A stretch of DNA of 61,529 nucleotides. It comes from a virus. Position numbers and translations under genes: made by a program. The notes below the pieces were generated by a model that worked only from the letters and a program-made list of their open reading frames with translations, searched no databases and was not told where the DNA came from. Positions 3,787-32,841 of this stretch are shown piece by piece; within the stretch, counting starts at the first letter, position 1; every line of letters starts with the position of its first letter. The DNA is taken from the IMG/VR virus record IMGVR_UViG_3300025632_000015, positions 1 to 61,529 of that record; one strand, 5' to 3'.

Positions 3787-3791
3787 ACAAA

Positions 3792-5804
3792 ATGAATTTT
3801 ATAAGAAACAATGGTGAAGTGGTAGAAGTTAATGACAAAGATGTCAAAACTTTAGAAAAGACTCAAACGTACACACTCTTTGGAGCTAAACATAATCCAA
3901 GCGGTGAACAAATGGTAGGCGTAGTATATAGTAACGACGTGGCAAAAGCAGAAGCCGAATATGCAGACAACGATTCAGGGCAACCAGAATATAACGAAAT
4001 ATTGGCAAATCCTAAGAAGACGTCTAAAATAACATGGCGAAACCTTAGATTACAGAGCGCAATATCAGGAGAGAAAGCAATTAAGGGACTAATTAGTACT
4101 ACTGCTGGTCTTTTTACAAAAGCAGCCAGAAAAGCAGGAAGCAGTATCGCAGCAGGCGGAATTACAAATGAAATGTCTGTAAGAGAAGATCCATTGTTAT
4201 TCATTGCAACTGCGGAAGATTGGTATGCATATATTAAGAATATGAACACAGTCGATATAGGCGCAGAATTTGCTGCCGGTGTGTCACACGCACAACGTTC
4301 TTCTAATGCATTATTCGCACACGAATGGGAGAGTGACCCAGGTCATCACAATCTTATGGGAAGATTACTTCCGGGTTCAGATAGCCAAGAAGCAGTTGCA
4401 AAAGGGCAGATTGCTTATGATATTCTAACACGAGGCAGAGAATTACTTAAACAACAAGGATACGGTGCTACACAACAACAAGTGATGCATAAACTTGTTT
4501 TCGACATACTGCGCTCTATGCCAGTAAAACAGTACAACTATTACACATTATACCAACTTCACCCAGATGAAGGTAATGAAATATACGCTGAATTCAAAAG
4601 CAGATACATTCCTTTAGAGACAGCAGAAGTAGAAATGGTATTAGAAATGCAAAGATCACTAGCATCAGAAGGTGACGCATACGCATTCAGAACTACAACT
4701 AACGAACAAACAGGACTACTCTCTTCACAACTAATGCGAAGAGTAGTTGCAGACTACGAAGTTGGTGATACTGTAAACGTTCGAACATTACTAATGACAT
4801 TACAAGGCCCACCATATAATTACAGAGCAAGAGCAGTTGACATAGCAATGGCATCAGGTCAAAGTAGCGCAGCAGTAGCTAGCGGTACAACGTTTATGGA
4901 GTTCAATCTACAAAACAGAGAGATAATGACTGACATGATTAATAATGGTAGTGGTAAGAAACTAAGCAACGAGAAGGTTGGCGCTTATGCTCTTGGCATT
5001 GAATCAACTCACTTGGATAAAGGCAATGAGTTGAAAATTAGTAAAGACCGCATCGCCGACTATCCTACAATAGTAATTGCAGCAAGTCAGTATGACCCAA
5101 CACCACTGTATGTTGCTGTAGCAGTTTCCGGTGGTAAAGGTGGCAGCAACAAAAACCAACAAGGTAAAAAGAAAGGTGGTGGCGGCAAGTGGAAGATAAT
5201 CAAGTACAACGAAGATTATCTAAAACTTGGTAAAAACGACAATGCTGGTAAAAAAGCACAAGGAATCAGAAGAGGACTTGGTAAGAAAAACCCTACCAAG
5301 AAAGCAAAGAAAAATCCACAACCAACAAAGCGTGGTAACTTTCACTTTGTTCAACTATGGCCAACTACACAATTAGATATTAAGAAAAGAGAACCAGTTG
5401 GAGGAATGGCAGGTGGTACTAGACATGGCACAGGCAAGTCAAAGAAGGGCCAAGGATATTGGACCAGAGGTCTAAACAAAGCAACCAAAGATATGCAAAA
5501 CAAACAACTACTGATGATGGGAACACACAAGAAAACAGGTGAAGAAGCACCTTACAGAATTAAATTCCCAGTCTCTTTGTTCAAAATTGTTAACCATCCA
5601 ACAGCAGGGTACAAAACACTAATGCCCAAGAAAGATATACAAAATAAGAAATTCATCGCAGCATACCAAGATTTCATAAATCATTATGGATTACCAAAAC
5701 ATGCACCTTCGAAAGATACGTATAATCGATTTATTATACCGAAGTCAGAAAGAGCGAAAAGTCCTTACTACATAGATATGCGTAAAAAAAGCGGTAGAAA
5801 GTGA
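3792..5804 (+). CDS. Large protein with KNP-flanked basic linker, unknown function
   Basis: I chose the ATG at 3792 because AGGTGA lies just upstream; a GTG at 3783 is in frame but overlaps that site. The product has about 670 residues. An N-terminal part runs to about residue 440. It is followed by a Gly/Lys-rich linker (about residues 448-520) containing GLGKKNP and AKKNP, then a basic C-terminal domain with aromatic residues that ends in RKKSGRK. HNP and ANP motifs also occur in the first 85 residues. No catalytic motif is clear. The basic tail could bind nucleic acid. The gene is coupled to both neighbours through TGA stops embedded in ribosome sites. Confidence 0.6.
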   Translation: MNFIRNNGEVVEVNDKDVKTLEKTQTYTLFGAKHNPSGEQMVGVVYSNDVAKAEAEYADNDSGQPEYNEILANPKKTSKITWRNLRLQSAISGEKAIKGLISTTAGLFTKAARKAGSSIAAGGITNEMSVREDPLLFIATAEDWYAYIKNMNTVDIGAEFAAGVSHAQRSSNALFAHEWESDPGHHNLMGRLLPGSDSQEAVAKGQIAYDILTRGRELLKQQGYGATQQQVMHKLVFDILRSMPVKQYNYYTLYQLHPDEGNEIYAEFKSRYIPLETAEVEMVLEMQRSLASEGDAYAFRTTTNEQTGLLSSQLMRRVVADYEVGDTVNVRTLLMTLQGPPYNYRARAVDIAMASGQSSAAVASGTTFMEFNLQNREIMTDMINNGSGKKLSNEKVGAYALGIESTHLDKGNELKISKDRIADYPTIVIAASQYDPTPLYVAVAVSGGKGGSNKNQQGKKKGGGGKWKIIKYNEDYLKLGKNDNAGKKAQGIRRGLGKKNPTKKAKKNPQPTKRGNFHFVQLWPTTQLDIKKREPVGGMAGGTRHGTGKSKKGQGYWTRGLNKATKDMQNKQLLMMGTHKKTGEEAPYRIKFPVSLFKIVNHPTAGYKTLMPKKDIQNKKFIAAYQDFINHYGLPKHAPSKDTYNRFIIPKSERAKSPYYIDMRKKSGRK

Positions 5805-5809
5805 TTAAA

Positions 5810-8002
5810 ATGAGAGTAAAGGTACCAAGAGAATTGGCTGGTGGCTCTCTACTTAAAGCACACCAGTGGGTTAAGTCTAATGTAGCCAAAACAAATCCAG
5901 GTAGAGCAAGTAATGATTACACGCTTCAAGCAGTTGATGGTACACCAATCAGTCTTAGTGATTTAACAAGTAGAACATTTGACGAAGTTCTAGTAGTATC
6001 AGGAACAAAAAACAACCCAGGTCAGTACCCGGTTCCAGAAGAATCATGGGGATATCCAACATATAAATCTAAAAACAGATTAGGTAACAAAGTGACTACA
6101 CTGTTAGCAAAAGATATTGATCCATCAATGATAGAAAGAATAGCCGCGCAAAATGGTATGTTCAGTGCACTCAATACTGTGACAAAATTATTGTATACTT
6201 CAAAAAACAACCTGAGGGGTACGGATACTAAAGTCGCTGCACTGCTACAAACATATGCTAACGCATCTGCAGTCAAAAATAATCCAGGAAGACCGTTCTT
6301 TGCAACAGATATAAACAACAAATTTAGAGGAGTTGTATCACCACAAGAAGCAACACGCTCATTTATTGCACAAGAATTTGGGGTAGACCCGTCTGATGGC
6401 GTATTCGATGCAAATAGTGAAGCAAGTACGTACCTAATAGACAAAGCAAGAATTATTAGAATGTATGATTTGGCTAACCCAGACACAATTGAAGATTTTA
6501 TGGATAACGTTTTGTTCCCGTTCCTAGCGATATCAACAGCAAACGCAAAGATGTTGAAAGCAATGAAGCACCAAGATTACAATGACATGACTAGGGATGC
6601 GCTCACAAGAGGCAGAAAAGACAGTGATAGTTTTGATATCAGATGGCAGAAACTAATTTCTATGGTACCAACAAAAGCAGAACAATTCTATGATGGAATG
6701 GATTATGCTTTAGTCGCACATCCTTTGTTCATGAGTGACAGTCTTGGTATAGCAGCAATGAATAGAAATCTTATAAGATACATTGCTAATACAGTTAGAG
6801 ATTATCCAGGTAACGCAAACCGCGCAGTTAGTTCAATACAAAGAAGAGAATTTGCTACACCGTTACAAAAATTCTTGAACATGTTCAGACCAGAAGACGG
6901 CGCCCTGTATGAGATGATGCAAGGCCAAACCGATATATTACGAGCCGGAACCACAGCAGAAGAAACACTAGCAGCATTGCAGTCTATCTATAACCCCGAA
7001 ACAATAGATATTGATATAGCCAAATATACCGCAAATCTGGAGACTGATCGGTTAGTTGGATTCTTTAGAGACGTCGCTGGTTTCAAACCCACCCCACCAC
7101 CATATTGGCCCAAACCAGTTGTATTAGCAATGATGGACGCACTTAGAAATAACATAAACGCAGTCATTATTAATGAACAATTGAACTTCGGCGGAACATT
7201 TATGTCGCATCTAACCAGAGGCAAGCTTCCTGCACAATACTGGTGGCTACAATCGATACAAATTCAATTAGCAAGCCCAGAAACGCTGCCCAAAGCAAAA
7301 AATGAGGTATTAGAGGGGATAAAATATCATAAGAGAAGTACTAAGTTTGGTAAAGTAATGGAAGAACTCTATCCAACTATAGAAGGACAAACCTATGCTG
7401 ACCAACTTAGTAGGACACCGGGAAATCCGTATGATATCTCAGCGAAGAAATTTTCCGAAATCGCAAACAAACTCAGTGATTACATAGACAGAATAAAACA
7501 AGATGGAAAAGGTTCCCTGAGTGACACCGTAAGTCCAACAATACATATACTAAGTGTATTTATGGAAATAGAAGATACTAGTAGAAGTAAGTATAACTAT
7601 ACTATGAGTGAAAACGATAGAGCATTTACACTATATATGCTACAAGAAGTATTTAACTATATAGACCGCAATACACCCGGCAGCTTAGGAGAACTAAGAC
7701 AATCATCAACCCCTGCAGATAACGCTAATATATTGAATATACTACAAGGATATACGGACACCGTCCCTACGGTAAACAACAAAGAACTAACAAATAGAAT
7801 AGAGTTTGAAACAGGAGTACAAGAAATATGGTATCAAGTCCAAGCACTATTAGTTGGATCTGATCCAGGCAATGTTGCGGTCGTCCAAAAAGATGCAAAA
7901 GACGAGTTGCTAGAATATAGGAACGGATTACCAGAGGAATGGCGTCGAATTAGAATAGACACTCTAATAGACACAATAAATGATTGGAGACCAGCCCCAT
8001 GA
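5810..8002 (+). CDS. Large hypothetical protein with N-terminal NPG motifs
   Basis: About 730 residues from the ATG at 5810. The preceding stop and ribosome site read GTGATTAAA-ATG; a GTG at 5801 is in frame but belongs to that site. The first 165 residues contain three similar motifs (KTNPGR, KNNPGQ, KNNPGR) that divide the N-terminus into short modules. The rest is mostly helical in composition with no membrane segment and no recognised domain. A TATAG-rich patch occurs around 7540-7780. The stop overlaps the next start (ATGA). Function unknown; position in the structural-like run suggests a virion or assembly role. Confidence 0.6.
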   Translation: MRVKVPRELAGGSLLKAHQWVKSNVAKTNPGRASNDYTLQAVDGTPISLSDLTSRTFDEVLVVSGTKNNPGQYPVPEESWGYPTYKSKNRLGNKVTTLLAKDIDPSMIERIAAQNGMFSALNTVTKLLYTSKNNLRGTDTKVAALLQTYANASAVKNNPGRPFFATDINNKFRGVVSPQEATRSFIAQEFGVDPSDGVFDANSEASTYLIDKARIIRMYDLANPDTIEDFMDNVLFPFLAISTANAKMLKAMKHQDYNDMTRDALTRGRKDSDSFDIRWQKLISMVPTKAEQFYDGMDYALVAHPLFMSDSLGIAAMNRNLIRYIANTVRDYPGNANRAVSSIQRREFATPLQKFLNMFRPEDGALYEMMQGQTDILRAGTTAEETLAALQSIYNPETIDIDIAKYTANLETDRLVGFFRDVAGFKPTPPPYWPKPVVLAMMDALRNNINAVIINEQLNFGGTFMSHLTRGKLPAQYWWLQSIQIQLASPETLPKAKNEVLEGIKYHKRSTKFGKVMEELYPTIEGQTYADQLSRTPGNPYDISAKKFSEIANKLSDYIDRIKQDGKGSLSDTVSPTIHILSVFMEIEDTSRSKYNYTMSENDRAFTLYMLQEVFNYIDRNTPGSLGELRQSSTPADNANILNILQGYTDTVPTVNNKELTNRIEFETGVQEIWYQVQALLVGSDPGNVAVVQKDAKDELLEYRNGLPEEWRRIRIDTLIDTINDWRPAP

Positions 8003-9115: not shown

Positions 9116-10537
9116 ATGAGTATGATTAGCGCAGTCTATTGTAATGATTGCGGTGATAGAAACGATTCTAGTCACATGCATTGTAAAATGTGCGGAGCTA
9201 AATTACCGGTGATGGCACGACAAAATCCATTGTATGCAAAACTAACAGAAGACAGGCCAAAAGCGGTTGTTTTTGATTTAGACATGACATTATTTGACAA
9301 CTCACAAAGATTCACAGATGCAAGAAGAGCAGGACTTGTTGACAAAGCAGGAAAGCCAAAAGTCAAAGGGATGATGAGTAAAAAACAAGCGTTCAACAAA
9401 AGAAATAAATTCATTTACTCCAAAAAAGAACTTGCAAAAGACGTAGTGATTCCGGGCGCAACCCAGTTGGTTAGTGATTTGAAAAACGATGGCTACACCA
9501 TAATTTATCTTACTGCAAGACCAAACAAGTACCAAGAGCAAACAATCCAACAACTGGAAAATAAAGGCTTTCCATTGTTTAGAGACAGAGATGGTAACCC
9601 ATTAGTATTTTCTAAACCAGCAGATAAAACACAAGTTCCTGCGTTCAAAGGAAATAAAGTTAGAGAATTACTTGGTAATTACACAGTAGAAATGGTCTTT
9701 GATGACAACAAAAGCAATCTAGAAGAAATTTCTAAGTTAGGAATCCCAGGTCTGTATGCATCACTTTCAGATCATGTTAAGCACAATCCAGAAGCACACG
9801 ACTTCAGAGACGGACAGTTCGTAACAGGAACAGACAATGTCGATGTTGCATCTGATATGATGCGTGACCCAGATTTAGGTCCAGACGACAGAGAGCAAAC
9901 CGTAGGAGAAACAGCATATTTAGAAGAAGAACAAATGAAACAAATGAAACAAATGTCAATTGATGACTTCACATCAAACCCCATGGGACCAAACCCACTA
10001 CCAAATCCACTACCAAAACCAAAGAAAAAGAAACTTTCAAACGGTAAGTACCGCAAAGAACCAAAGAAAACTTACGTCAATAGAATGATGGAAACTAAGA
10101 AGATGAAAGAAGATTTCCCAGATAGGAAGCAAAGATATGCAGTTACTATGACATTGGTAACAAAGTTTTACGGTAAGTCTAAAGCAACACCCAAATCAAA
10201 TCCAGCACATCCAAGTAAAGTAGAGAAGGCTAAAAAACTTTACAAGCACATGAATGGTAAAGAACCAGCAAAGATCGAGAAAAAGAAACTTGACTTAGGT
10301 GATGTATGGTATCAAGTTGGTGAAGGAGGATGTTGGCAAATTGGTTACATATCTGGCAAAGATAACGGCAGAGATGACCAAAAGTACACTCATGTTTTCA
10401 ACGAAGAAACCAAAGACGGCAACTTCCCTAAGTTGTACGCAACAATGCCAGAAAACGGCAAACCAATGCTAATCATTACTGGCGGCACATGGAAGATTAA
10501 AACAGACGCCACTGGAACAGCATGGATATACGATTGA
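9116..10537 (+). CDS. Zinc ribbon / HAD-type phosphatase multidomain protein
   Basis: The product has 473 residues; a leaderless start at the second ATG (9122) is possible. Residues 8-31 form a zinc ribbon (CNDCG then CKMCG). After an RQNP motif comes a HAD-superfamily phosphatase: motif I DLDMT (residues 54-58), threonine motif YLTAR (about 130), and acidic motif FDDN (about 195). This arrangement resembles the 3'-phosphatase part of polynucleotide kinase-phosphatases. After HNP and SNP motifs and a proline-rich NPLPNPLP linker come a basic module and a C-terminal domain with a KLYKHMNG motif, of a kind seen in phage mosaic proteins. The likely role is nucleotide or DNA-end phosphate hydrolysis; the substrate is unproven. 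Confidence 0.65.
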   Translation: MSMISAVYCNDCGDRNDSSHMHCKMCGAKLPVMARQNPLYAKLTEDRPKAVVFDLDMTLFDNSQRFTDARRAGLVDKAGKPKVKGMMSKKQAFNKRNKFIYSKKELAKDVVIPGATQLVSDLKNDGYTIIYLTARPNKYQEQTIQQLENKGFPLFRDRDGNPLVFSKPADKTQVPAFKGNKVRELLGNYTVEMVFDDNKSNLEEISKLGIPGLYASLSDHVKHNPEAHDFRDGQFVTGTDNVDVASDMMRDPDLGPDDREQTVGETAYLEEEQMKQMKQMSIDDFTSNPMGPNPLPNPLPKPKKKKLSNGKYRKEPKKTYVNRMMETKKMKEDFPDRKQRYAVTMTLVTKFYGKSKATPKSNPAHPSKVEKAKKLYKHMNGKEPAKIEKKKLDLGDVWYQVGEGGCWQIGYISGKDNGRDDQKYTHVFNEETKDGNFPKLYATMPENGKPMLIITGGTWKIKTDATGTAWIYD

Positions 10538-10853: not shown

Positions 10854-11069
10854 ATGGCAGAAATATGGAACCCCTTCGATGACGGAAACCCCGTTTACAA
10901 AGAACTAGCAAAGAAAACCGCAATAAATAATAACACCTGGAAATGGATAGGAAGCATTGCAGTTGTGATGATTGTTGCTGATTACGCTGGCAAAAAAGGA
11001 TTCAGACTCAGTGGAGTGTCAGGATTAGGCAGGGTTAAGAACAATCCATATGGAATAATCCGCAAGTGA
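10854..11069 (+). CDS. Small membrane protein with GLG-KNNP motif
   Basis: The product has 71 residues. A polar N-terminus is followed by one membrane segment (about residues 27-46), then SGLGRVKNNPYG near the C-terminus. This joins the two short motifs that recur in this window, G-L-G and K-x-N-P, within ten residues. The ATG follows the upstream TGA at once (TGATACAATG). No family is recognised. Confidence 0.6.
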   Translation: MAEIWNPFDDGNPVYKELAKKTAINNNTWKWIGSIAVVMIVADYAGKKGFRLSGVSGLGRVKNNPYGIIRK

Positions 11070-11078
11070 GGCGGAGGT

Positions 11079-14000
11079 ATGAGTAAATATGCTTTTTCTG
11101 AATCGTTCGGTGAATTTACCGACAAAGATACAGAAGACGCAGTATTGACTAGATACAAAAAGCACGTCATTGACCATATACTTCAACACTATGAAATACA
11201 CGTCAATAGTCACAATCGTGACAATTTAACTTCACATCAGTTGCTATATTACCATGTTTACGGCGATTATCGTTTAGTATTAGACGACAAGAAACCTAAG
11301 TTTGTTTACAAAACAACAGGATATACAGAAACAAATATATTGTTGGGCGCACCGATAGATGAGTACTATCTAAACAATTTTCTAAATCAAGAAGAAGAAG
11401 GCATTATCAATGGCATATATGATTCTGTAAAAAATGATGGCGCATTAAAATACGACACGGAAAAAGTAGATTGGTTAAACACCGAACTACAAAAAAGAGG
11501 CACAGGAACTAAATTTAACTTACCAAGCATTGGTACAGAGATTGTAAAAATGCATGCTTACGGAAATGCTTCGGATGATATTAAAAAAGGCTTGATTGAC
11601 GAAATGTATGCATTAAGTGAGTTCTTAGACTCAGAAGATAACAGAAATGAGTATCCAGCATTATACGATGAAGACGCTATAGAATTAGTTAACAAATTTC
11701 TCGTAAATCCATTTATGGACTCAAGCGAGTTTAATGGAAGTGTATCAAAATCCATAGCCGTCTTAATAGAATCATTTTTGACAAATTTAGAGTATCGTGA
11801 ACTCTACGACTCATATCCAGACGAAAAAACCAATCCCCTACCACTAGAGAAAAATATTTTTAAAACTTTACGAGATATATATGACATAGACAACGATTAT
11901 GACACAGAAGGAGCCATTAGCAAAATAGTATCGACATTGTTTGCAAAGTCTACGCAGAAGTACAATATTGACGACGAAGTAATGTTTTCAGACAATCTTT
12001 CAAGTGCGAAACTAACCGCAATAGCAGATTTATTAGAAGTAGACCAAGAAGAGATAATGGCGTCCGAGTACGTCATAACCGGATTTAGTGAGACTGGTGG
12101 ATATGTTTTGCGTACAGTAGATTTAGTTGGTGGCGGACCTGTACCGCTAGATTTGAATGACTCACCAGATGACGTAAAAATTGCAGAAAACGATTTGATT
12201 AAATCAACTACACCGAAATTTGATTACGACGAAGATTCTGGTGACGTCACAACCACTGGTGGTAAGAAAAAAAAGAAAGGCGGTGGCAAAGTAGTATTAG
12301 AGCCAGCGTTAATTATTTATCAAAGGATTCTACTCGATACGTTTTCTGCCATACAAATATTGTGTCACACCAATGAATGGGCAAGACAGGGTGGCAACAA
12401 TGCAGAGGCTAAAACCGAAGCAAAAATGCGATTTCTTTCCAGCGGAGTTAACGTATATGCTTCGACACAAAACAACAACCAAAATAAACAGAAAGGAAAT
12501 AACAACAAAAAAGGCAAAATAAAACCAATTCATATTTACGATTCATTCCCCAACATAGCACATTTTGACAGCGGAAGTGTAGTTGGAATACCACCAAATA
12601 AAGACAGTAAAGCAAAATTAGGAAATCGGGGTTTGTTAGATGAATTGGCAGATTGGAGAGGGTTCTACACACTCTCAGTGCTAGCCAAAGCAAGAAAGAA
12701 ATCATACGACAGACAGTCTATGGACACTTTTTACTCATCCGATATTTTACTAAAAGAAATCGCTTGGATGGCGACTGCGTTAAGTGACGGCTCAAAAGTA
12801 CTTTCTAAGAAAGAAGACCCAAGAGACTTAATGTCACAAATTCAATATACATACGTTCGAGGAGTGCCAACAGATAAGGACGGTAACGACTTACTGCAAC
12901 AAACAGCCGTTGCACCAAAGGAAACTGTTTTCTACGAAGTTGACGTACCTTTGTTGAAAGAAGTAATAATGACTTACACAGATGTTTACAATAAATCTGT
13001 TATATATCGTGCGTTCAATACAGCAAAGAACACAAAGGACAAAACCATAACCGTCGAAACTGACAACGTAAAGACATTGGTTGCAAATGCATTTGAGGAA
13101 CATAAAAAAGCCAAAAAAGCAGAGGATGAAGGAAAACCAGATGCAGAAATAAAAGCATTCAAAGATAAAAAAAGCGAATACCTAGGCCAAGCAATGAGGC
13201 AACAGCCCAATGCATTTAGAGTAGATCAACCGAAAGGAAAGTCGGGTCGCGACGAAGACAGTTATCCTGGCATAAAGTATCTGCCGAAAGGTGAGGGAGG
13301 CAAATTCCACGTTGATGTTACACAGATACCTAGTAACGTTACTGGTGCAGATAAAATACCAAAAGACCGGAACAAAAAATCACGTACAGCAGGTCCCGCA
13401 GATGCTGGCGAATCAATATACGACACAACCACAATAACAACTAGAGCCCCTGTGAAAGAAGCCGATCTTGCAAGAACAATATGGCAGTCTGTCAAAACAA
13501 GAACAACAGGACTGTTTGACTTAGAAGGTGCAAGACCTCACGAATTTATGTATCTGTTATTCGAGGAGATGAACAAAGTTCTCTCAAGGTCTAAGTTAAT
13601 CAAAGCACCATACCCTGAAGCATGGTTTGGTACAAACATTGTTGACAAGTTAATTACCGACCCTATGCAATTAGGAGAGAGCGTTGAGATAAGATTTTAC
13701 GAAGAAAAACTAGCAGAATACATTGGTGCATTAGAAAAAAGATACATGAGCAATTTTTTAATTCCATCAGTTTTATTGACACAAACACAAATGGGTCGTA
13801 TCAAATATAGCAAAAACCCAGAGAAACTAAAGATGGCGTTTATGGAAAGACTCGCAAAAGACTCAGCAAGCCCACAATTAGTAACGACTAATTATATTCT
13901 CAAACCATATGCAATAACAGTGGCCATCATGCGCGGTGTTTTACAAATACCCGAAAAAGACAGATCGTCTTTTGTCGCACAAGAAATAGATGAAGATATG

Positions 14001-14105: not shown

Positions 14106-17100
14106 TGAGTGACTTCAACCTTGTATTCGTAGAGTTTGATAAGTTTGCTCGACTAGAAACTGTAGATAAAGAAACATTGACAGAAGACGACATAGATTTA
14201 TTCTTGACTAATTTCCTAGCACCAAACTCATTCTTCTATCACAAAGGTTTGCAGATAAGTTGCGCAAATAAGCCAGACAGAGAGACTGGTGAAAAAGCAT
14301 ATGACATGGACGGTAAGTCTTATGTTGAAGCAGTTAATGAATTAAAACCAATATTAAGTAAAAAGATAAGAGATAGTTATGGTAGCATTTCTAAAGACTC
14401 TAACGCATTTGCATTCGATGCCGCACCTAGAACTGTCAAAGAAATTGCATTAAGTTTGGCATACGGTGCAGGATTAAATGCAGCAAAATGGCAAGCAATG
14501 TCAGAAATAGAAAGAATACAACACCCTGTTTACGCGAATGCACAAATAGAAGCAAATAGAATACAAAGTAGATTGGCACAGTATCATGAAAAGGTATTGC
14601 CTTTTATGCTAAGAAAAACAATGCATCACCCCATTTCGTTTATCAAATATAGCCAAACAAAAGGATACATCCCTACACCAATCAGGAATACTAACGAAGT
14701 TAATGAAGTTACACTATCGTCAGAAGAAGATTTGCAAAACATGCTGAGCAGTAAAAGATACAACGATACTGGATTCCCTGGTGCCAAAGATGAAGAAATC
14801 AGGGGATTAGTCTGGGATCCATCACCAAGCAGAAAGAATTTGAAACTCGCTGTTATTGATATTGACAACCCAGCAGACTTAAGCAAAGCAAAACTAAGAG
14901 AAGTTACGCGTAGTGCTGCCCTAAGAATAGCAAATGCAGGACATCCATACATCATAATGTATACAGGTAAAAATTTTCAAATATGGATGGGTGAAAGTAA
15001 AAACAAACTGGGTGATGCACCGGAAGTTATAGATTATCTTAGAGGACTTTTGAATGGACTTGGTAACTTCCAAGGCAAACAAGAAGCCATTGATGCAAAG
15101 GAAATATGGTTTGACGAAAACATATTAGCAAGTTCAGTAAATAAATTACCAACTAGGATGTTCTTTAGTTTGCACTATCCACTAAAAAACCAAGAGAAGT
15201 CATATAGTGGTTTAGCCGCTGTACCAGTAAGCATTGACAATGTAAAGACATTTGATCCTTACAAGCATGCACATCCAGATATTGTATTACTAAACTTTGA
15301 CAAATATGCTAGTGTCATAGCCGCTTTCTTTGACTCAGTGAAAGTTGGACAAGACTATGGAGAGGATACAGAAACAGATCCAGAGTGCATTAGATTACCA
15401 GAGAAGTACCCTGATAATGAACTAGTATCTCTAATAGATAGTAATAGTAATACTATAGGGGTTAAGTTAGAAGATATAGCTAATAAAGTAGCAGACGAAG
15501 CGTCTACATTTGTATATGCAAAAGCAAAAGGTATAGACGCAGTAATAACATACAATGAGCGAGGCGGACTTAGATTCGGTAAGAATACCTTGACTAGCAC
15601 TAAAGTAAGGTCGACAGGTAACAGAAAAGAAGAAGTTAGCGAGAGTACCTTATCTGCAATCATAACTCGAACAGGTATAGTGATACACAGTGATTACATC
15701 TCTAGGGATTTGCAGCGGTATTGTCAGTCTAAAAATATCAAAGAACTAACTTTGGTTGGTCAACTAACAAGCACAGACTACATTGGTAATGAATTGGAAG
15801 AACAAGAAATACGTGGAGTAGTATCAAGAAAAGAAGGCATCCTTGCCGAAGAGTTCAAGACACTAAGATTCGTAGTCAATAAGATAGCATTCCATAACAA
15901 TGAAATGGTCCCATTAGAGATAATGCATAAAGAAGTTCAGAAATTAAACAGTAGTAGAATACTACCAGGACCCAGCACAAACTTTACAAATCCTATGGGA
16001 GAGAAAATTAAAACATATTACAAAACCATAAGAAGCCTAAGACTGGGTAGAGAACTAGTCGTATTGGGCGAAGAGTCGTATCTCATTTCTGCATCAGACA
16101 CAATGAACATGGTAATATTAGGCATGGACGCCAGGTCAACTGCATACCAACAAAATTCCAAAGAAATCGGTACCGTGTATGTGGGCGTTATCAAAACTGA
16201 TAGAAACAGAGGACCAGTATATTACATCATGGCAAAAGCAGAAATTGCATTAAAGAAAGAAGATAGGATACGACTCAAAGAGTTGGTTGTTGGTGAAGAT
16301 GGTAAAAACATAGTACCAGTCAATGTTAGAGATGACCAGTTCGTAAATGACATAGTGCTTACAGAACCAAATATAGTAGTAGAAGTAGCATATAGTGATA
16401 TTAGCAGTAGAATGACAATTGCACTTCCGTCACAATTTATTCCTGGCACCGCTTCTGGTAGACCTAAACTATACAGAATATTGGATGCGAAGCGATATAT
16501 CACAAAGATGGTCGGAGCAAAAGTTATCAGAATTAACGAAGATCTAAACCCATTAAAACAAACAGATGTCTCTTTCGACCAAGATAACCTAATCAAAATA
16601 CAAGGAACAGCACCAAAAGGAGGTTTTACAATTGTGCAATCGCTACCGAACCCAATCAAGAGAGACGATTTGTACTCAACATATGACAAACTTCTCGGCG
16701 AAGAAATAGATCCTAAGCTACCGTGGAAGATGTCTGAAAAAGCATTTGATAAGTTCAGTAAGTTAACTAAAAATAAAGCACTAATTGGTTATGTCGATGG
16801 AAAGAGAATTTACTACAACGAAGCAGACGATTGGGTAATGCATGGAAATAACGAAGATTTCTTTTGGGCATCAATGACTTTCAGATCGATTATGAGTCCA
16901 TTCAAATTACGAGGCGTTGACATAATGACCGCAGCCAAGATGTGTGCAGAGTATGGCGTGAATTGGCATTTGGTTGTATCAGAAAATACTTTCTACTGGA
17001 TGTACTGTAGCATAGAAAACGATCAGATCCGTAAAGAACATTCTAAGTACATACGTGATGAAGACTACGATGGTGATATAGAAGAAGTTTTATCCGATTT

Positions 17101-18259
17101 ATTACACACAGTTAATTCAACATATTCTCCCAAATCAGTTGTTAAAGATGCAAAAGTTCCGGGGTTTGTGTTTGATGTAACTGTTGTCGAAAAGATTAAA
17201 CAAAACCCTGCTTTTTATGGCGTACCAAAGAAACTCAACTCATGGATGGATGTTTACCTTGATAGCGAAGACTTGGGTCTAGATGAAGACGGCAATCAAA
17301 AATATAGATATGTAGAAGCCGGTGGAACAATAGTACCATTGACTACGTATGGTGGACGTAAAGAAGATGTTCCATTACTAAGCAAGAATTACCTTGTAGA
17401 AAAAGACAGGCGTATACCAGGAGAATTCGATGTCGCAGCTAGGCGACACCATAAAGGCGAACCAGGATACAAAGTATACATTGATGAGGGTTCCGCAAAT
17501 AGTCTAAATGCAACACCCCACTATACTCAAACTAGTTTACCTTTCAGCTTTGCAACCGCAGTAGATGACAAATACGGTTATGGGCAAGACGGTAATAGAG
17601 TACTATTTGGCAAAAGTGGATCTGCTGGTCAGTTAAAACAAATCACAGACAAGTATGATACAAAGTCGTTCAAGACGCAAATGGACAACCATGATCTATC
17701 AAATAAAGAACAAGCAAAAGAAGACGCAAGATTACTCCAGTCGATGTTTAATTATGTACCAGGTGGTAAAGTTTTAGATCCAAATAAAAAAGAAACAGAA
17801 ACTAGATCCGGATCAGGACTAAGTTTAGATTACCAAAAAGCGTATGAAGCCGACAATAAAAGGCTACAGAAAGCAACGACAGAAACTCCTTTTGCACACT
17901 TTAAAGCCAAAACTAACCCACCAATAAAAGCACAAGCATGGGCTGAATATGTCAGTAAGTATGTAGAAACACATAGATTATGGGATGCCGAGCCAGAACC
18001 TAAAGAAACCTGGGAAAGATACAGTCTTGGAGCATTTCCTGCACACTTTGTTGAAATGTTAGAAAAGGAAAGATTATTGTTAAAGGCACAAGACGCACAC
18101 TCGTTAACAGAAGACGAACTGCGAATACTCAACGAATCTTTTAGTGCTGCACCATCAGGAGACTTGTTGGAAAGTGCGCTTAGTGATTTATTTGAAGCAG
18201 TAGAAGAAGAGGAGGAAGTCGAATATGAACCAGATGATGAAGACTACGACATCACATGA
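14105..18259 (+). CDS. LigD-like primase-polymerase / ATP-ligase-like fusion protein
   Basis: 1384 residues. Residues about 200-400 resemble the archaeo-eukaryotic primase/LigD polymerase fold: a hydrophobic strand with DID (LAVIDIDNP, about 246-254), a later YTGKNFQIWMG where LigD has a Gly-Lys-x-x-His segment (the His is Gln here), and FFSLHYPL before AAVPVS, like the end of LigD polymerase domains. Residues about 460-600 sit where the ligase core would be, but the KxDG nucleotidylation motif reads KAKGID. Residues about 660-800 match the ligase OB domain, including VVEVAYSD. The remaining C-terminus is unrecognised. It is probably a replication or repair protein; polymerase and ligase activity are both doubtful because key residues are changed. 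Confidence 0.5.
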   Translation: MSDFNLVFVEFDKFARLETVDKETLTEDDIDLFLTNFLAPNSFFYHKGLQISCANKPDRETGEKAYDMDGKSYVEAVNELKPILSKKIRDSYGSISKDSNAFAFDAAPRTVKEIALSLAYGAGLNAAKWQAMSEIERIQHPVYANAQIEANRIQSRLAQYHEKVLPFMLRKTMHHPISFIKYSQTKGYIPTPIRNTNEVNEVTLSSEEDLQNMLSSKRYNDTGFPGAKDEEIRGLVWDPSPSRKNLKLAVIDIDNPADLSKAKLREVTRSAALRIANAGHPYIIMYTGKNFQIWMGESKNKLGDAPEVIDYLRGLLNGLGNFQGKQEAIDAKEIWFDENILASSVNKLPTRMFFSLHYPLKNQEKSYSGLAAVPVSIDNVKTFDPYKHAHPDIVLLNFDKYASVIAAFFDSVKVGQDYGEDTETDPECIRLPEKYPDNELVSLIDSNSNTIGVKLEDIANKVADEASTFVYAKAKGIDAVITYNERGGLRFGKNTLTSTKVRSTGNRKEEVSESTLSAIITRTGIVIHSDYISRDLQRYCQSKNIKELTLVGQLTSTDYIGNELEEQEIRGVVSRKEGILAEEFKTLRFVVNKIAFHNNEMVPLEIMHKEVQKLNSSRILPGPSTNFTNPMGEKIKTYYKTIRSLRLGRELVVLGEESYLISASDTMNMVILGMDARSTAYQQNSKEIGTVYVGVIKTDRNRGPVYYIMAKAEIALKKEDRIRLKELVVGEDGKNIVPVNVRDDQFVNDIVLTEPNIVVEVAYSDISSRMTIALPSQFIPGTASGRPKLYRILDAKRYITKMVGAKVIRINEDLNPLKQTDVSFDQDNLIKIQGTAPKGGFTIVQSLPNPIKRDDLYSTYDKLLGEEIDPKLPWKMSEKAFDKFSKLTKNKALIGYVDGKRIYYNEADDWVMHGNNEDFFWASMTFRSIMSPFKLRGVDIMTAAKMCAEYGVNWHLVVSENTFYWMYCSIENDQIRKEHSKYIRDEDYDGDIEEVLSDLLHTVNSTYSPKSVVKDAKVPGFVFDVTVVEKIKQNPAFYGVPKKLNSWMDVYLDSEDLGLDEDGNQKYRYVEAGGTIVPLTTYGGRKEDVPLLSKNYLVEKDRRIPGEFDVAARRHHKGEPGYKVYIDEGSANSLNATPHYTQTSLPFSFATAVDDKYGYGQDGNRVLFGKSGSAGQLKQITDKYDTKSFKTQMDNHDLSNKEQAKEDARLLQSMFNYVPGGKVLDPNKKETETRSGSGLSLDYQKAYEADNKRLQKATTETPFAHFKAKTNPPIKAQAWAEYVSKYVETHRLWDAEPEPKETWERYSLGAFPAHFVEMLEKERLLLKAQDAHSLTEDELRILNESFSAAPSGDLLESALSDLFEAVEEEEEVEYEPDDEDYDIT

Positions 18260-21200
18260 TATTGCAACCCTACTGAACTTTCCAGAAATAGGACAAATAC
18301 TTTCTGGTAACAAAGTTACTGATACAGACGTCAAGTATAAAGATGGTGTATTTAGATACAGAATAACTTTACCAAAAGGCGTAAGACGTAGCGACATACC
18401 AAACATACTGCGTGATTTTTACAATATTGGAATTTTTACATTGAATAGCGAAGATCACATAGTAGAGAATCATGACTATCAAACAAGGACCACCAGAAAC
18501 AATGTAGTTGTAATCGGGTCAATGCAGATAACTCCTGTGAGTTTAACTAATCCAGTACTAAAGAAGATGACTGCTCTAGAAGATTTTAACAACGAATATG
18601 ATAAGATGGTCATGACGGCTCCGGAGACTTACTTCAAAGCATTTCCATATAGAGGCTTTAATGGCCCAACATTTAGGGCTAAACTATTTTCTTTCGTATC
18701 AAACATGGGAGAAAACTATGGGTACTGTGATGATAAAACAATCTACCATCGTAGAGCATCATTAGTTATGCCTAAAATAAAAATTACCAAAGCACCGGAA
18801 CAAGCAAAAATGTTCTACCATACACACCCTAAAAGAGACGAACCGTCTCTGAGTTCTGCAGACGACTATCTAATATATTTCGATATGAGTCACAAGCCAA
18901 GAAATATTAGACACTTCTATACTGTAATGGCAGACAGAATGGATTACTTTCACATTGTACCTAAACCGTCAAAGAAGAAAGACTACGTTAAAATTAATGA
19001 AGACAAGTTCATTGCAGAGTTAGATAATCAAATAGATGAAGCCGCAAGCAGATTAGATCAGGTGATGTCTAGTGATTCATACGGTGACGACTTACAATAC
19101 TGTGAAAAAGTAACACGTGAAGTAGTAAAATGGTTAAACAATAAATATAAAAAATACTTTACAATAACTTACAAATGCCACTACCGAGTAAAGAATAACC
19201 CAGATAAACCAACTGGAAACGATTTGCACTTAGATGATGAGTTTATTGGTAAAGCACTAAAAGATCTGAAAACAGGAGCTGCATCTTGGCCAGAGTTTAG
19301 GGAGAAAGACAAGCCACAAGAAAATTATGCATATTGGCATTCAAAATACTTTACTATGAATAAGGATGCAAAAGGCGTTGGTTACATGGGGTTACTTCCC
19401 GGTGACACTAGAAGGTTCAACCATTTCATATATGCTAATTATAGAGGTAGTGAATATACCTATGAAGATATACTAGGTATACTATGTATAAGTAATGATA
19501 TAAAGATTAGAGATGCTAAGATAAGAGATGGTAAAGGAATTACTAGTAGGATAGAAGATATCTTAGATTACTTAGAGATACACAATGAAGAGATTAGAGA
19601 AGACATTATGCTTTATGATTCTATAGTGGCAGTAGATGCTTATGGGTCTATGGCAGAAATAGTTGGTGAAGAACATAATTTTATTTTACCGATAGCAGAC
19701 TTTTCAATGCAAAGTGTAGAAGCAATGAAGCTAGTTCGTGGCGGTAAGAAGAATCTGGAGCGAGCAAAATATGATATCATGGTTACGCTCAAAGAAAAGA
19801 TGGGTAAAGCAGTAGCAGATGCCTTGGGAAAAAGGAATAAGCAACTGGTAGACACTGGAACACCCGTATCAATTAATGCATATCACCCATGGAATGATCC
19901 CACAGACACTCGCAATACCTATCCAGGAGATAGCATAAAATCATCTACATTGGGGATTAATCCTCCAGTTCAAAGAAAAAAACGTGAGTTTGGTATGGTT
20001 TTACCAAAAAACGTATTTGACAATCAAGAGTTGCTATTAGAAGTTTTAGAACCGTTCAAAAAACCAGATAAGGATTTAAGAAACGAAAGAACAAACCAAT
20101 ATAACATTGTTGTGCCTGGGGACAACTCTGCTGTGAATTTTACTTTTTACGACACTGGTACCGTCCAAATATTTGTTCCGGCAAAAGGATACCCAATGCC
20201 AGAAAATCCAGACGAAGCAGTTCTTGTTGCAGTTAGAACACTTATTGAAACAATAAATGACATGGGACTTGCGAAACCCATTGAAACAGATGATATAGCA
20301 TTTGGTACGATAGAACCGATACGTAACCCAAATACTGGAGTTATCGTAGCCTTAGTCGGGCCAATACAGCCGACAAAAAACAAGATACTTGATTCACTGT
20401 CTAAAAGAATGAACGCTAGTGTAGTAACTACGTTCACGACAAAGATACTGAAGGCTTACGAGAGAAGACCAAACATAGTAGAAGTTACTGATGAGATATT
20501 TACTAAGATGGAGAATGGTGGAGAGATAGTCGTAGCAACACAAACATACGATGGTTACAAGCGTGGATTCAGCAGAAAAGATATGCAAAAAGGAGATTTC
20601 ATGATGATAGATGCAGAGGTAAGTGATTTACACTTTCTGATTAATGCAAAGCCGTCTGTGATTAGTTTCTTCTTACATCCAACTAATTCTGAGGCAACAA
20701 TAGAAGGATACATGTCTAAATATGTTTCACCTCAAGAAGCAAAAAGAGTTTCTAGGTCTATCGAACCTTCACAAGATCAAGTAGAACATATTATTGAATA
20801 TGACATTGAAAGACCTGCTTCGGCAATAGAAGAAATCTACAACACAATTCCAAAACCAAACCCAATGCCTAAATCAATTGGTTCTATGATGGTTTCATCA
20901 AATGGTGAATATTACTTACGTGTAAAAAACAATCCTTCACACAATAGTTGTCCAGCAGTAACACAGAACTTGGAATTAAATACCAAGAATAGAAACTCTG
21001 CAATAAAAGCAGATTACATAAAATACGGCCCACTTAATTTAGCAGACGAAGATTACTGGGTCAAAGCAGCGGAACACTGGAACACAACACCAGAAGTTGC
21101 TAAAGAATCAAAGTGTGGTAATTGTGTCGCATTTGACATATCACCAAGAATGTTAGATTGTATGCCAGGATCTGTACAAGATGACGGGCAATTAGGAATG

Positions 21201-23411
21201 TGTTGGATGCACAATTTCAAATGTCATTCTGCTAGAACTTGTTACACTTGGGCAGCAGGTGGGCCAATAACAGAGGATTCTGTTTCTTACGATTGGCAAG
21301 AAAGGTCAGCAAAATCCAACCCTCAAAAAAAAATTTCAATTAGAATAGATGAAAGCACAAACCCAGAAAAGAAAATGATGGCTGTATTTACCAAACCAAA
21401 TGGTAGAACAAAGACCATTCACTTCGGTGCTCGCGGCATGAGTGATTATACTCAACACAAAGATAAATCACGCAGAAAGAACTACCTTGCACGTCACGGT
21501 GGAATGGGAGAAGATTGGAATGACCCAATGACAGCAGGTGCATTGTCAAGATGGATTCTATGGGGCAAGCCGAGTCTAAGGGAATCGTTTAACGACTTCA
21601 AGAAGAGATTCAACTTGGAAGGAGTTATGGCTGTCACGAACACAAAGATGAATCCTTCATACACAACCAAGTTCGACTTTGTTCCAGGCAAGGAATATAC
21701 TTTTGATGAACTACCAGGACATGAAACAGGAAGAATGGTAACTGCACTAGAAGAAGAATATGGGCCACTTGGAACTTCCCTAAGAGAAGATGCACTTCAT
21801 CACTTTAGAAGCAAAGGAATGGAAGGTGGATATGGTTTTCCCGGAACTGCACAAGAGGCAATTTACAAAGCAGTAATTATTCCCAACGAAGAGTTAGTGG
21901 AACGATTTGGACACTTACAAGGAAAGCCAAAACTACAGAAGCATATCGAAAAGTATGGATTAGATTACCCTAGTATTGGTAACGAAGGAAACAATAGAAG
22001 AATTGCTATGGCTAAACTTGGAAGAGATATGCCGCATTTAGAAGTCGTCCCAGCAAAGATGAACCCAAGAATCCCAAAGAAGTACGAAGGACAAGATCCA
22101 AGCGAACATTCAGACCTTTACACCGATGAAGATCCAGAAGGAACAATTCAAGGCTTGGGGTTTAAAGACAAAGCAACAGCAACGAAATCAATTCGATTGA
22201 TTAAGAACTCAGGAAAAACTCACGCACATAAGATACAAGCAGCAATGGCTATGGAACAAAGAGCAAGATTCCACCCTAATGCAACAAAAGGAATCAAAGA
22301 GGCACAGAAAGTTTACAAGCAATTTATTGAAGAAATGAAAGTGAAAACAAAAGAAATGAAAGTAAAACTAAAAGTGAACCCAATGGCTCCCGGCTATCAA
22401 TCATATTCATGGACTACAGAAGACTGGCGTTCAATTAAAGTAAACAACAAAGGAGAAATAGATTACAAAGAAAAGTGTGGGGCAGAAGGAACACAAACAC
22501 CAGATGGTTCTCCTAGACTTTGTTTACCTGTGGAAGTCATTAGGTCTTTGTTAAGAACTGAATCAGGAAAAGATGTTATTCGTACACAAGCAAGGAAAAA
22601 AGCCCGTGCTAAGAAAGGTGAGAGAGTTCCTTGGCATCCAAGGATTAAGAAAATTTGGAAACGTGTAAAGGAACAAAGTCCCAAAGACAAGAAAAATCCA
22701 AATCCATATTACAATGCACATCTTTATGCAAGTGGTAGTACAGACCCATTTTTCCCAGGAGACGTACCTGTGGCTCCACCAGCCTTGTTAAAGAATCCAC
22801 CAAGTAAAGTAATTATTGTAAGTGGCCCATCTGGTTCTGGAAAATCAACCATATCTAAAACAATAGCAAAAGAACTTGGCGGCACACTTGTACCAACTGT
22901 GACAACAAGATCCAGAAGACCAAAAGAAAAAGAAGGAGGAGACAGAATCTTTGTTTCTAAAGATGAATTCAAAGAAATGATAGATAACAATGAGTTTGTT
23001 GAATACAAGCAACACAAAGATGGAGTCTTTTACGGCAGAAGAAAAACAGACATGGATGACATATCAATTGTAGAAGTTAGCCTAAAAGGAATGAAAGAGT
23101 ACAAAGAACTTTATCCAGATTCATTTGCAGTATTCTTAGAGCCAGATAAGTCTCCGAAAGAGATAGAAAAAAGATTATTGTTAAGAGGCGGTATGTCAGA
23201 AGCAAATGCAAAAGCTAGAGCAAGTATAATTCCTAAACAAGTTGCAGCAGCAAAAACAATGCCTTATGATTTATTTATCAAATCAAGAACAGGTAAGTAT
23301 TCAGAAGTAGCAAAAGAAATAATTAGTCAAATACCAATGGCTAATCCACATTGGCGACATGGTGAAGCGATGGACGAAGAAGACGATCCGTTTGCAGACC
23401 AATTTAACTAA
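18225..23411 (+). CDS. Mosaic protein: JAMM protease domain, small viral domains, guanylate kinase
   Basis: 1728 residues; the start overlaps the previous gene by 35 bases with GGAGGAAG before the ATG. Residues 163-213 carry a JAMM metalloprotease pattern: a candidate Glu 163, then HTHP (198-201) and SSADD. Residues about 705-880 are laid out like guanylate kinase but with a broken P-loop (GPIQPTKNK). About 960-1007 is a Cys-rich module (CGNC, GMCW, CHSARTC). About 1028-1140 has an HFGARGMSDYT-HKD-RH pattern known from giant viruses and phages (DUF5754-like). About 1141-1280 ends in an EGNNRRIAMAKLG ParB-like motif. Two further small domains follow. About 1525-1700 is an intact guanylate kinase (GPSGSGKST). 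Most borders carry KxNP motifs. It may be a polyprotein. Confidence 0.6.
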   Translation: MNQMMKTTTSHDIATLLNFPEIGQILSGNKVTDTDVKYKDGVFRYRITLPKGVRRSDIPNILRDFYNIGIFTLNSEDHIVENHDYQTRTTRNNVVVIGSMQITPVSLTNPVLKKMTALEDFNNEYDKMVMTAPETYFKAFPYRGFNGPTFRAKLFSFVSNMGENYGYCDDKTIYHRRASLVMPKIKITKAPEQAKMFYHTHPKRDEPSLSSADDYLIYFDMSHKPRNIRHFYTVMADRMDYFHIVPKPSKKKDYVKINEDKFIAELDNQIDEAASRLDQVMSSDSYGDDLQYCEKVTREVVKWLNNKYKKYFTITYKCHYRVKNNPDKPTGNDLHLDDEFIGKALKDLKTGAASWPEFREKDKPQENYAYWHSKYFTMNKDAKGVGYMGLLPGDTRRFNHFIYANYRGSEYTYEDILGILCISNDIKIRDAKIRDGKGITSRIEDILDYLEIHNEEIREDIMLYDSIVAVDAYGSMAEIVGEEHNFILPIADFSMQSVEAMKLVRGGKKNLERAKYDIMVTLKEKMGKAVADALGKRNKQLVDTGTPVSINAYHPWNDPTDTRNTYPGDSIKSSTLGINPPVQRKKREFGMVLPKNVFDNQELLLEVLEPFKKPDKDLRNERTNQYNIVVPGDNSAVNFTFYDTGTVQIFVPAKGYPMPENPDEAVLVAVRTLIETINDMGLAKPIETDDIAFGTIEPIRNPNTGVIVALVGPIQPTKNKILDSLSKRMNASVVTTFTTKILKAYERRPNIVEVTDEIFTKMENGGEIVVATQTYDGYKRGFSRKDMQKGDFMMIDAEVSDLHFLINAKPSVISFFLHPTNSEATIEGYMSKYVSPQEAKRVSRSIEPSQDQVEHIIEYDIERPASAIEEIYNTIPKPNPMPKSIGSMMVSSNGEYYLRVKNNPSHNSCPAVTQNLELNTKNRNSAIKADYIKYGPLNLADEDYWVKAAEHWNTTPEVAKESKCGNCVAFDISPRMLDCMPGSVQDDGQLGMCWMHNFKCHSARTCYTWAAGGPITEDSVSYDWQERSAKSNPQKKISIRIDESTNPEKKMMAVFTKPNGRTKTIHFGARGMSDYTQHKDKSRRKNYLARHGGMGEDWNDPMTAGALSRWILWGKPSLRESFNDFKKRFNLEGVMAVTNTKMNPSYTTKFDFVPGKEYTFDELPGHETGRMVTALEEEYGPLGTSLREDALHHFRSKGMEGGYGFPGTAQEAIYKAVIIPNEELVERFGHLQGKPKLQKHIEKYGLDYPSIGNEGNNRRIAMAKLGRDMPHLEVVPAKMNPRIPKKYEGQDPSEHSDLYTDEDPEGTIQGLGFKDKATATKSIRLIKNSGKTHAHKIQAAMAMEQRARFHPNATKGIKEAQKVYKQFIEEMKVKTKEMKVKLKVNPMAPGYQSYSWTTEDWRSIKVNNKGEIDYKEKCGAEGTQTPDGSPRLCLPVEVIRSLLRTESGKDVIRTQARKKARAKKGERVPWHPRIKKIWKRVKEQSPKDKKNPNPYYNAHLYASGSTDPFFPGDVPVAPPALLKNPPSKVIIVSGPSGSGKSTISKTIAKELGGTLVPTVTTRSRRPKEKEGGDRIFVSKDEFKEMIDNNEFVEYKQHKDGVFYGRRKTDMDDISIVEVSLKGMKEYKELYPDSFAVFLEPDKSPKEIEKRLLLRGGMSEANAKARASIIPKQVAAAKTMPYDLFIKSRTGKYSEVAKEIISQIPMANPHWRHGEAMDEEDDPFADQFN

Positions 23412-23455: not shown

Positions 23456-24160
23456 ATGCGTCTGACAGGAAGGTTCATTGAATCATTCAAACACAGGCAC
23501 GGTGTTGTATTAGGTATTACTAGAAGTGGAAAGACTTTCTTGGCAGCAAAGGTCTTACAACGAATACAAGAAACAGGTGGTCATACGCTATTTATTGATC
23601 CTAAGCACGATGATGGCTATTCTCACCTCGGTACAATTTGTACATCACCAATAGAAGTTTATGAACAACTTTTGTTAAAGAACCCAGCAATTATATTCAG
23701 AACACCAGGGACTTCAGAAGAAAGAATAGAAGCATTAGATAGAGTAGTAGAGTTAATGTTCACACTACAAAGAACAGCAGGTTTCAAAAGAATTAGGAGA
23801 GTTATAGCAATTGACGAAATACAGTTGTTCGTTAAGAAAGGCAACTCTCGTGCAGTGGAAATGATTTGGACAATTGGTGCAGGTATTGGAATCGTAGGTA
23901 TGGCATTGACCCAAAGAATCCAATTACTTAACGAAACTGCATGGTCACAATCAGACAACAAAGTAATTTTCAGAATAGAAGATAGACCAGAGTATCTTAG
24001 AAGTAGGAACTTAGAACACTATGTTGAGCAATTAGATTTCTTTACCGACCCAATGAATAAATATTGGTTCTATTATACACAAGGCGGTGGCAAGTGGAAA
24101 AAGCACGAACCAGTTCCATTGATTGATGAGACCAAATCACTTAACTTAAGTCGGTTCTAA
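23456..24160 (+). CDS. FtsK/HerA-superfamily ATPase, candidate genome-packaging ATPase
   Basis: The product has 234 residues. Walker A is GITRSGKT (residues 20-27), Walker B is VIAIDE (about 116-121), and a conserved LTQR at about 151 matches the sensor glutamine region of HerA/FtsK ATPases. The small size and single domain match packaging ATPases of membrane-containing tailless viruses rather than chromosomal FtsK or HerA. The start is an ATG 45 bases after the previous stop; no ribosome site is seen and an AT-rich stretch precedes it, so a leaderless start is possible. The inferred role is ATP-driven DNA transfer into the virion. A role in replication or partition cannot be excluded. Confidence 0.7.
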   Translation: MRLTGRFIESFKHRHGVVLGITRSGKTFLAAKVLQRIQETGGHTLFIDPKHDDGYSHLGTICTSPIEVYEQLLLKNPAIIFRTPGTSEERIEALDRVVELMFTLQRTAGFKRIRRVIAIDEIQLFVKKGNSRAVEMIWTIGAGIGIVGMALTQRIQLLNETAWSQSDNKVIFRIEDRPEYLRSRNLEHYVEQLDFFTDPMNKYWFYYTQGGGKWKKHEPVPLIDETKSLNLSRF

Positions 24161-24930: not shown

Positions 24931-25014
24931 ATACTTATCACACTTTTCAATGGCACAGCAATATCGCAGCATAATCTATAGATGTATGACACGAACATAT
25001 AGTAATGCACGCCC

Positions 25015-25022
25015 CTTATATC
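25015..25022 (+). promoter_or_regulatory. TATA box for the basic repeat protein gene
   Basis: CTTATATC lies 30-37 bases before the ATG at 25052, so transcription would start only a few bases upstream of the codon. This supports 25052 as start rather than the in-frame ATG at 24950, which lies upstream of the box. Confidence 0.5.
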
Positions 25023-25051
25023 CCCCCTCCCCGTCGGACAGGTTAGATCGC

Positions 25052-30998: not shown

Positions 30999-31403
30999 AT
31001 GAAACTAGGAAAAAAGGTTATGAAATTCGCAGACGACTACCCTCTTGCAGTGTTAGCATTAGGTACGGTTGGAATAATGTATGCTTTTGAAAACGTAGGA
31101 CAAATCAATGGGCTAGGACAAGCAACATTCAAGACTAGTGGTAGCGATATGGATACTCTTTTCCACAAAACCGGACATACAGGAACAGCAGCACCAGGAA
31201 CAGGAAGATGGGACACAGTAATGCCTTCTCCATCCGGTCCACAAGTTCGCTATGATGCAGAGTATCATACACAACCTATAATGATGGATCCAGAATTAGA
31301 AAGAACTTTAGCAGAAAGAGGCAAAAGACCTGTTGTGCAAAGTCCATCAATTAGACATGGGTACGAACCAACAATCTTTGCAGGTATGAGACAAACACTG
31401 TGA
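30999..31403 (+). CDS. Small membrane protein with INGLG motif
   Basis: The product has 134 residues. It has a basic N-terminus (KLGKKVMK), one membrane segment at about residues 16-33, then INGLGQ at about 36-41 and a long polar Pro/Gly-rich tail. It is the first of a run of small membrane proteins. The start follows the previous stop by two bases, so expression is coupled. The G-L-G motif right after the membrane segment is shared with several neighbours. No family is recognised. Confidence 0.6.
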   Translation: MKLGKKVMKFADDYPLAVLALGTVGIMYAFENVGQINGLGQATFKTSGSDMDTLFHKTGHTGTAAPGTGRWDTVMPSPSGPQVRYDAEYHTQPIMMDPELERTLAERGKRPVVQSPSIRHGYEPTIFAGMRQTL

Positions 31404-32673: not shown

Positions 32674-32841
32674 ATGGGAATACAGAAAGACGCTAAAGGT
32701 GCTTGGAAAGATTCCAAAAAGTTTGCAAACAAACATCCAGTTGTATCTATATTAGTCGGTGGTGCAGTAGCATTCACAGCACTAAACATTTATTTTACTA
32801 GTTACATAATGACGAGCGCATTTGAGAAGGTGAATCAATAA
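32674..32841 (+). CDS. Single-pass membrane protein (55 residues)
   Basis: A short frame from the ATG at 32674 (preceded by GTGATTAT) to TAA. The N-terminal 20 residues are Lys-rich (KDAKGAWKDSKKFANK) and HP precedes a membrane segment at about 23-42. The stop overlaps the next start (TAATG). The layout copies the neighbours at 30999 and 32841, where a basic stretch and a short polar turn also precede the membrane segment, suggesting old gene duplication. Confidence 0.65.
   Translation: MGIQKDAKGAWKDSKKFANKHPVVSILVGGAVAFTALNIYFTSYIMTSAFEKVNQ

Follow-up and report, generated by a model that had tools for sequence, protein, structure and literature searches.

Candidate protease sites at module borders in multi-domain proteins of a probably archaeal virus

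Why should one short amino-acid motif recur between unrelated modules in many proteins of a single virus? The question is raised by a 61,529-nt virus record (IMGVR_UViG_3300025632_000015; one genome with 55 predicted proteins), hereafter called the window, meaning the whole stretch of DNA that was analyzed. A first-pass annotation had noticed (K/R/S/M)-x-N-P motifs at domain borders in a 1728-residue mosaic protein and in many other products, and had suggested that they mark either protease sites that release single domains or a spliced-in linker code left by domain shuffling. Below, products are named by the start coordinate of their open reading frames, and motif positions within proteins refer to the asparagine.

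Enrichment and distribution of the motif

Across the whole proteome of 55 proteins, K-x-N-P occurs 20 times, relative to 2.7 copies expected from composition (p 1e-11), and is the top-enriched X.YZ pattern genome-wide, which confirms the recurrence first noticed. K, N, and P are each frequent in loops, and linkers rich in these residues could often yield KxNP by chance. However, shuffling within blocks of 12, 20, or 40 residues produced at most 11 copies in 500 trials, never 20, and most permuted patterns, including KxPN, PxNK, and NxKP, were at expectation; chance is thus refuted, and we give it next to no weight. The excess is sharper when a small or aliphatic residue precedes the lysine ([AVTPILG]KxNP; 18 copies versus 1.3 expected). 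At position -2, clear enrichment was seen for K only (RxNP, 4 versus 1.8 expected), such that the lysine form of the originally proposed motif stands, while R, S, and M fall outside it.

All 20 copies lie inside products encoded between 3783 and 23411, with none in the remaining 11,206 residues. Eight are in the 1728-residue product (residues 325, 879, 903, 1032, 1143, 1280, 1385, and 1491), which additionally carries an LLKNPP variant at residue 1524, and the others are distributed among the products at 3783 (three), 5801 (three), 9116 (two, plus an RQNP), 10854 (one), 11079 (one), and 14105 (two). These are the six smaller carriers that had been named before, two of them from starts at 3792 and 5810. 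The product at 32841, however, holds RSNP and AAKNPP instead, and those at 51898, 53462, 53833, and 54439 have other NP contexts only; both the motif and the protein list had been drawn too widely. The features outside the 1728-residue protein are as follows (from the motif count unless another basis is given).

3888..3899 (+), KHNP, residue 38 of the 3783 product
5283..5318 (+), KKNP twice, residues 503 and 511 of the 3783 product
5888..5899 (+), KTNP, residue 32 of the 5801 product
6008..6019 (+), KNNP, residue 72 of the 5801 product
6275..6286 (+), KNNP, residue 161 of the 5801 product
9116..10537 (+), protein with a zinc ribbon, a polynucleotide-kinase-type phosphatase, and a C-terminal module (domain matches)
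9218..9229 (+), RQNP between the zinc ribbon (to residue 30) and the phosphatase (from 42) of the 9116 product
9779..9790 (+), KHNP after the phosphatase domain of the 9116 product (Pfam end 204-211)
10193..10204 (+), KSNP, residue 362 of the 9116 product
11037..11048 (+), KNNP, residue 64 of the 10854 product (short, with a hydrophobic stretch)
11826..11837 (+), KTNP, residue 252 of the 11079 product
17198..17209 (+), KQNP, residue 1034 of the 14105 product
17909..17920 (+), KTNP, residue 1271 of the 14105 product

The KHNP of the 9116 product, at residue 224, lies past the Pfam match yet inside the PHROG match (to 248). The gene at 14105-18259 shows, by eye, an archaeo-eukaryotic primase-like region and, after it, a weak match to the C-terminal part of DNA ligase (E 0.22); its product is perhaps a LigD-like fusion.

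At the DNA level, the K, N, and P of the motif are encoded in line with the codon usage of the genome, the flanks of the sites are 31% identical, which is near chance, and RVKNNP, present three times in the genome, is spelled with different codons each time. Because the codons vary freely, KxNP is no DNA linker repeat, a candidate that codon usage and the dissimilar flanks rule out. The spliced-in linker code accordingly finds no support in the DNA, and selection on KxNP acts at the protein level.

Modules and borders of the 1728-residue protein

Domain and homology searches resolved the 1728-residue protein into the following modules and sites.

18225..23411 (+), 1728-residue mosaic protein, candidate cargo polyprotein (domain and homology searches)
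18819..18866 (+), JAMM-like motif HTHPKRDEPSLSSADD near the polyprotein N-terminus (pattern search)
19191..19202 (+), KNNP, residue 325 (motif count)
20853..20864 (+), KPNP, residue 879 (motif count)
20925..20936 (+), KNNP, residue 903, N-border of the Cys-rich module (homology border)
20937..21317 (+), Cys-rich module, residues about 909-1030 (homology)
21312..21323 (+), KSNP, residue 1032, where standalone Cys-rich homologs have a stop codon (homology border)
21324..21638 (+), DUF5754 module, residues 1034-1138 (domain search)
21645..21656 (+), KMNP, residue 1143, C-border of DUF5754 (homology border)
22056..22067 (+), KMNP, residue 1280, N-border of the NPRIP module (homology border)
22062..22352 (+), NPRIP module (cyanophage T4-GC-119-type), residues 1282-1376 (homology; confident helical model)
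22371..22382 (+), KVNP, residue 1385, at the end of the last NPRIP-module helix in the model (motif, model)
22689..22700 (+), KKNP, residue 1491 (motif count)
22788..22799 (+), LKNP variant, 4 residues before the guanylate kinase module (sequence)
22806..23321 (+), guanylate kinase module, residues 1528-1699 (Pfam 2e-22; PHROG 8e-29)

The placement of the motif was tested in the 1728-residue and 9116 products, the two with homology-defined borders (domains of the 11079 and 14105 products are undefined). In these, 7 of 11 [KR]xNP sites lie beyond the domains yet no more than 13 residues from a border, a zone that makes up 5% of residues (p 2e-7), and none of the 11 falls inside a domain (p 0.016), which bears out the border location originally described. 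The site at residue 1280 is weak border evidence, because NPRIP is conserved in cyanophages and, in most relatives, this NP belongs to the module itself. A predicted model of the modules was confident only for the NPRIP helices, which end at residue 1384, at KVNP, and for part of the guanylate kinase. By a disorder proxy, the flanks of KxNP are no more disordered than average.

One alternative is that KxNP is a structural linker or helix cap that aids domain independence and that spread through recombination of modules carrying their own ends, as could be the case for NPRIP, whose own N-terminal NP is found in standalone copies too. However, Cys-rich and DUF5754 homologs have no KxNP at their ends, the motif is common to unrelated modules only in this virus, and there is no DNA similarity at the sites. 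We consider this explanation improbable.

The same modules in other viruses

Copies of the Cys-rich module were compared across 80 viral contigs, and in more than 40 of these the protein ends 13-18 residues after GGPI, the point at which the window carries KSNP. Standalone copies open with MKNFDLRKYLAEGRLYEA, MKSIKLFEEFKEA, or similar leaders. The homolog in phage DSL-LC01 is annotated as a high potential iron-sulfur protein. The NPRIP module, in turn, is preceded by MKTFREFTEA, MKTFLEFTEE, and similar stretches that, by eye, are like the T4 capsid targeting sequence, and cyanophage-type copies of the modules stand behind the T4-like leaders MKTFREFTEAPRIP and MKSIKLFEEFKEATSCP or behind LxE sites. 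In T4, the gp21 protease cleaves after L/I-X-E, and a 10-residue N-terminal leader directs cargo into the head (PMC9026906). Where modules are fused, the border is often [LI]xE, as in locus L028, in which GKKEGLEEEPRIP links the Cys-rich and NPRIP modules. Further, the 12 residues preceding the module contain [LIVMF]xE at 66 of 102 and 40 of 57 loci, versus 10% and 21% in controls drawn from other stretches of the same proteins.

The named relatives with the module are Kyanoviridae, in which it lies near head or packaging genes. Among viral contigs of marine type, the Cys-rich and NPRIP modules are abundant (more than 570 each at least) and often stand behind T4-like leaders; they are probably packaged head proteins. 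A search of a genome-contig collection for DUF5754 yielded a single contig, from a Chlamydiae bin.

A second KxNP virus was not found in the collections searched by short patterns, searches that may leave out near relatives. The many phages matched by the DNA pattern KxNPRIP[KR]K were rejected as KxNP viruses because the NP belongs to the module, and KxNP counts among phages selected in this way are biased by that selection. Searches of viral and genome collections with the packaging ATPase, the 14105 product, and the chaperonin returned no relatives.

Host, packaging ATPase, and another border motif

Directly relevant to the kind of virus are two genes of the window.

23456..24160 (+), HerA/FtsK-type DNA-packaging ATPase (PHROG 2666; the ATPase of tectivirus GC1 matches weakly)
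48444-49997, group II chaperonin of the thermosome type, complete, with archaeal proteins as its best PDB matches

Based on the chaperonin, the virus is probably archaeal.

A comparison with one contig of 123 kb (G001) revealed some of the same modules behind a different motif. This contig encodes a 1106-residue mosaic in which DUF5872 is combined with DUF5754 and the Cys-rich module; these last two stand in a different order from that in the window. The module borders of the mosaic read AESFES, MESFEA, AESFDA, and SESFES. The pattern AE[STDEG]FE[AS], written below as AE[ST]FE[A/S], occurs 23 times in the contig versus 0.10 expected (p 4e-46) and not once in the window, and KxNP is not enriched in the contig (8 versus 5.3). 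Four of its proteins have the common leader MCN(T/H)CGC-x-x-AE-x-FE. The packaging ATPase belongs to the same PHROG (2666) as that of the window, although BLASTP cannot align the two, and a TFIIB-like gene was recognized by inspection; together, these suggest another HerA/FtsK-ATPase virus, probably archaeal, with its own border motif. In the stretch covering loci L256-L261, several proteins begin with an MCN(T/H)CGC leader followed by AExFEA or AExFES, resembling a targeting tag plus border motif, and many proteins of the contig end in a hydrophobic, anchor-like stretch.

These leaders bear on a second alternative, in which KxNP is a docking or packaging motif, present once in each module, through which cargo is tethered to a protein of the capsid, core, or membrane, and which stays uncut. 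The window has about one KxNP per module, T4 leaders combine targeting with a cleavage site (PMC9026906), and the N-terminal leaders MCNTCGCxGAExFEA of the 123-kb contig likewise join tag and border motif. Yet targeting alone needs one copy per polyprotein, not eight, the border motifs separate modules at points where standalone homologs terminate, and the T4-phage counterpart is a cut site. On balance, we judge docking unlikely, though less so than a structural linker.

Protease search

The candidate polyprotein shows a single motif reminiscent of a protease, the JAMM-like HxH...SxxD at residue 199, and a single-sequence AlphaFold model of that region, made with no alignment, was too poor to judge the fold (pLDDT 44). 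No convincing Pfam protease match was obtained among the window proteins, a gp21-like protease was not found in the window, and a crude pattern, Q(3-5)C[GAS], for the H-D/N-Q-C signature of SUMO-type cysteine proteases (adenain, pS273R) matched only in the 35576 and 43459 products, though a divergent enzyme of this type may be present. Searches of the PDB with the 24201, 14105, and 11079 products yielded nothing useful, and a literature search for KxNP returned matches that merely contain the word polyprotein.

Sites of described families were also counted. The T4-type site [LI].E[AS] is not enriched in the window (23 versus 20.1 expected), nor is the phiKZ-type site [ST].E[AS] (14 versus 22.5 expected, counted in the S/T-X-E form), and, by inspection, the window proteins share no T4-type N-terminal capsid targeting leader.

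Discussion

We propose, with a probability of roughly 0.6, that the virus's own maturation protease recognizes or cleaves [A/V]KxNP and would in this way free virion-cargo modules from polyproteins. Specifically, the genes between 3783 and 23411 would encode precursors of virion or injected cargo, assembled from shuffled modules, and, as the virion is assembled, the protease would split these into single proteins at the [A/V]-K-x-N-P of each module border, such that the motif would play in the window the role of LxE in T4. Observations in favor of this reading include the excess of KxNP (20 versus 2.7) and its confinement to one gene block, the position of [KR]xNP at borders (7 of 11) and never inside domains (0 of 11), the ending of standalone Cys-rich homologs where the window carries KSNP, and the threefold recurrence of RVKNNP from different codons. 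The cutting itself, its timing, the cut bond, the enzyme, and the entry of the products into the virion are what we infer. Counted against the proposal are the lack of any protease beyond the JAMM-like motif, flanks that are not extra disordered, and the lack of a second KxNP virus in the collections searched. Further, proteases rarely cleave directly before proline; the cleaved bond may therefore be at another position, or KxNP may serve for binding alone.

The comparison among viruses carries the argument further. Some of the same modules are joined by different, virus-specific motifs, as would be expected if every virus had a protease site of its own. Three virus types have three border motifs, each enriched across its own carriers, and one of these matches a known maturation-protease site; most simply, then, a border motif is where the maturation protease of the respective virus acts. 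The domain-releasing protease sites first suggested thus gain indirect support, from homologous modules found behind [LI]xE and leaders or behind AE[ST]FE[A/S], with release itself still conjectural.

By analogy, the system of the window would work like the polyprotein or prohead processing of T4 gp21, phiKZ, SPN3US, and pp220. As in T4, cargo modules, some of them homologous, stand behind a short recurring motif, but that of the window is K-x-N-P, has no glutamate, and marks many borders inside a single chain, and its virus has a HerA/FtsK-type packaging ATPase. In phiKZ and SPN3US, one short cleavage motif is found in many virion proteins and differs between relatives, with S/A-X-E being the site family of phiKZ-type proteases (PMC9026906, PMC5694885). 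The AE[ST]FE[A/S] of the 123-kb contig resembles S-X-E; however, the sites of these prohead proteases (S/A-X-E, A-X-E) mostly remove propeptides in tailed phages, and the motif of the window lacks their glutamate. Because the T4- and phiKZ-family signatures were not found in the window, we do not place its system as a member of either. African swine fever virus, a large membrane-containing DNA virus, cleaves long polyproteins such as pp220 at a short recurrent site (PMC10308890), which matches the recurrent short motif between domains of long precursors seen here, although its products are core-shell proteins, whereas the modules of the window include enzymes shared with phages.

A broader and more tentative picture, which we think somewhat more apt to fail than to hold, is that large, probably archaeal HerA/FtsK-ATPase viruses package multi-enzyme polyproteins, that an undescribed non-glutamate protease acting at [AV]KxNP frees the modules, and that border motifs form a virus-specific code. 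Modules would then be re-stitched with the local protease site on each move between lineages. If true, border motifs read from sequence would reveal the cargo proteins of an uncultured virus, their cut positions, and the specificity of its protease, and polyprotein processing of enzyme cargo would extend to poorly known, probably archaeal viruses with HerA/FtsK-type ATPases. The occurrence of the same cargo modules behind three border motifs provides a testable rule for cargo movement between unrelated viruses.

Additional observations

A second motif, [ILMVR][NSFAM]G[LIM]G (for example, INGLG, LFGLG, MSGLG, and VMGLG), occurs 12 times in the window versus 1.5 expected, with the pattern picked post hoc. 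Its carriers (32841-33716, 33713-34108, 30999-31403, 24950-26089, 54439-56415, 10854-11069, 3783-5804, and 55-2481) are mostly proteins with hydrophobic stretches, and it sometimes stands directly before KNP or KxNP, as in GLGRVKNNP and GLGKKNP. We take the pattern to resemble the adenovirus protease consensus. One carrier, 24950-26089, has a long K/R-rich repeat (RRKTTRRKAAPKRR) followed by hydrophobic segments, and its product may be a DNA-condensing core protein.
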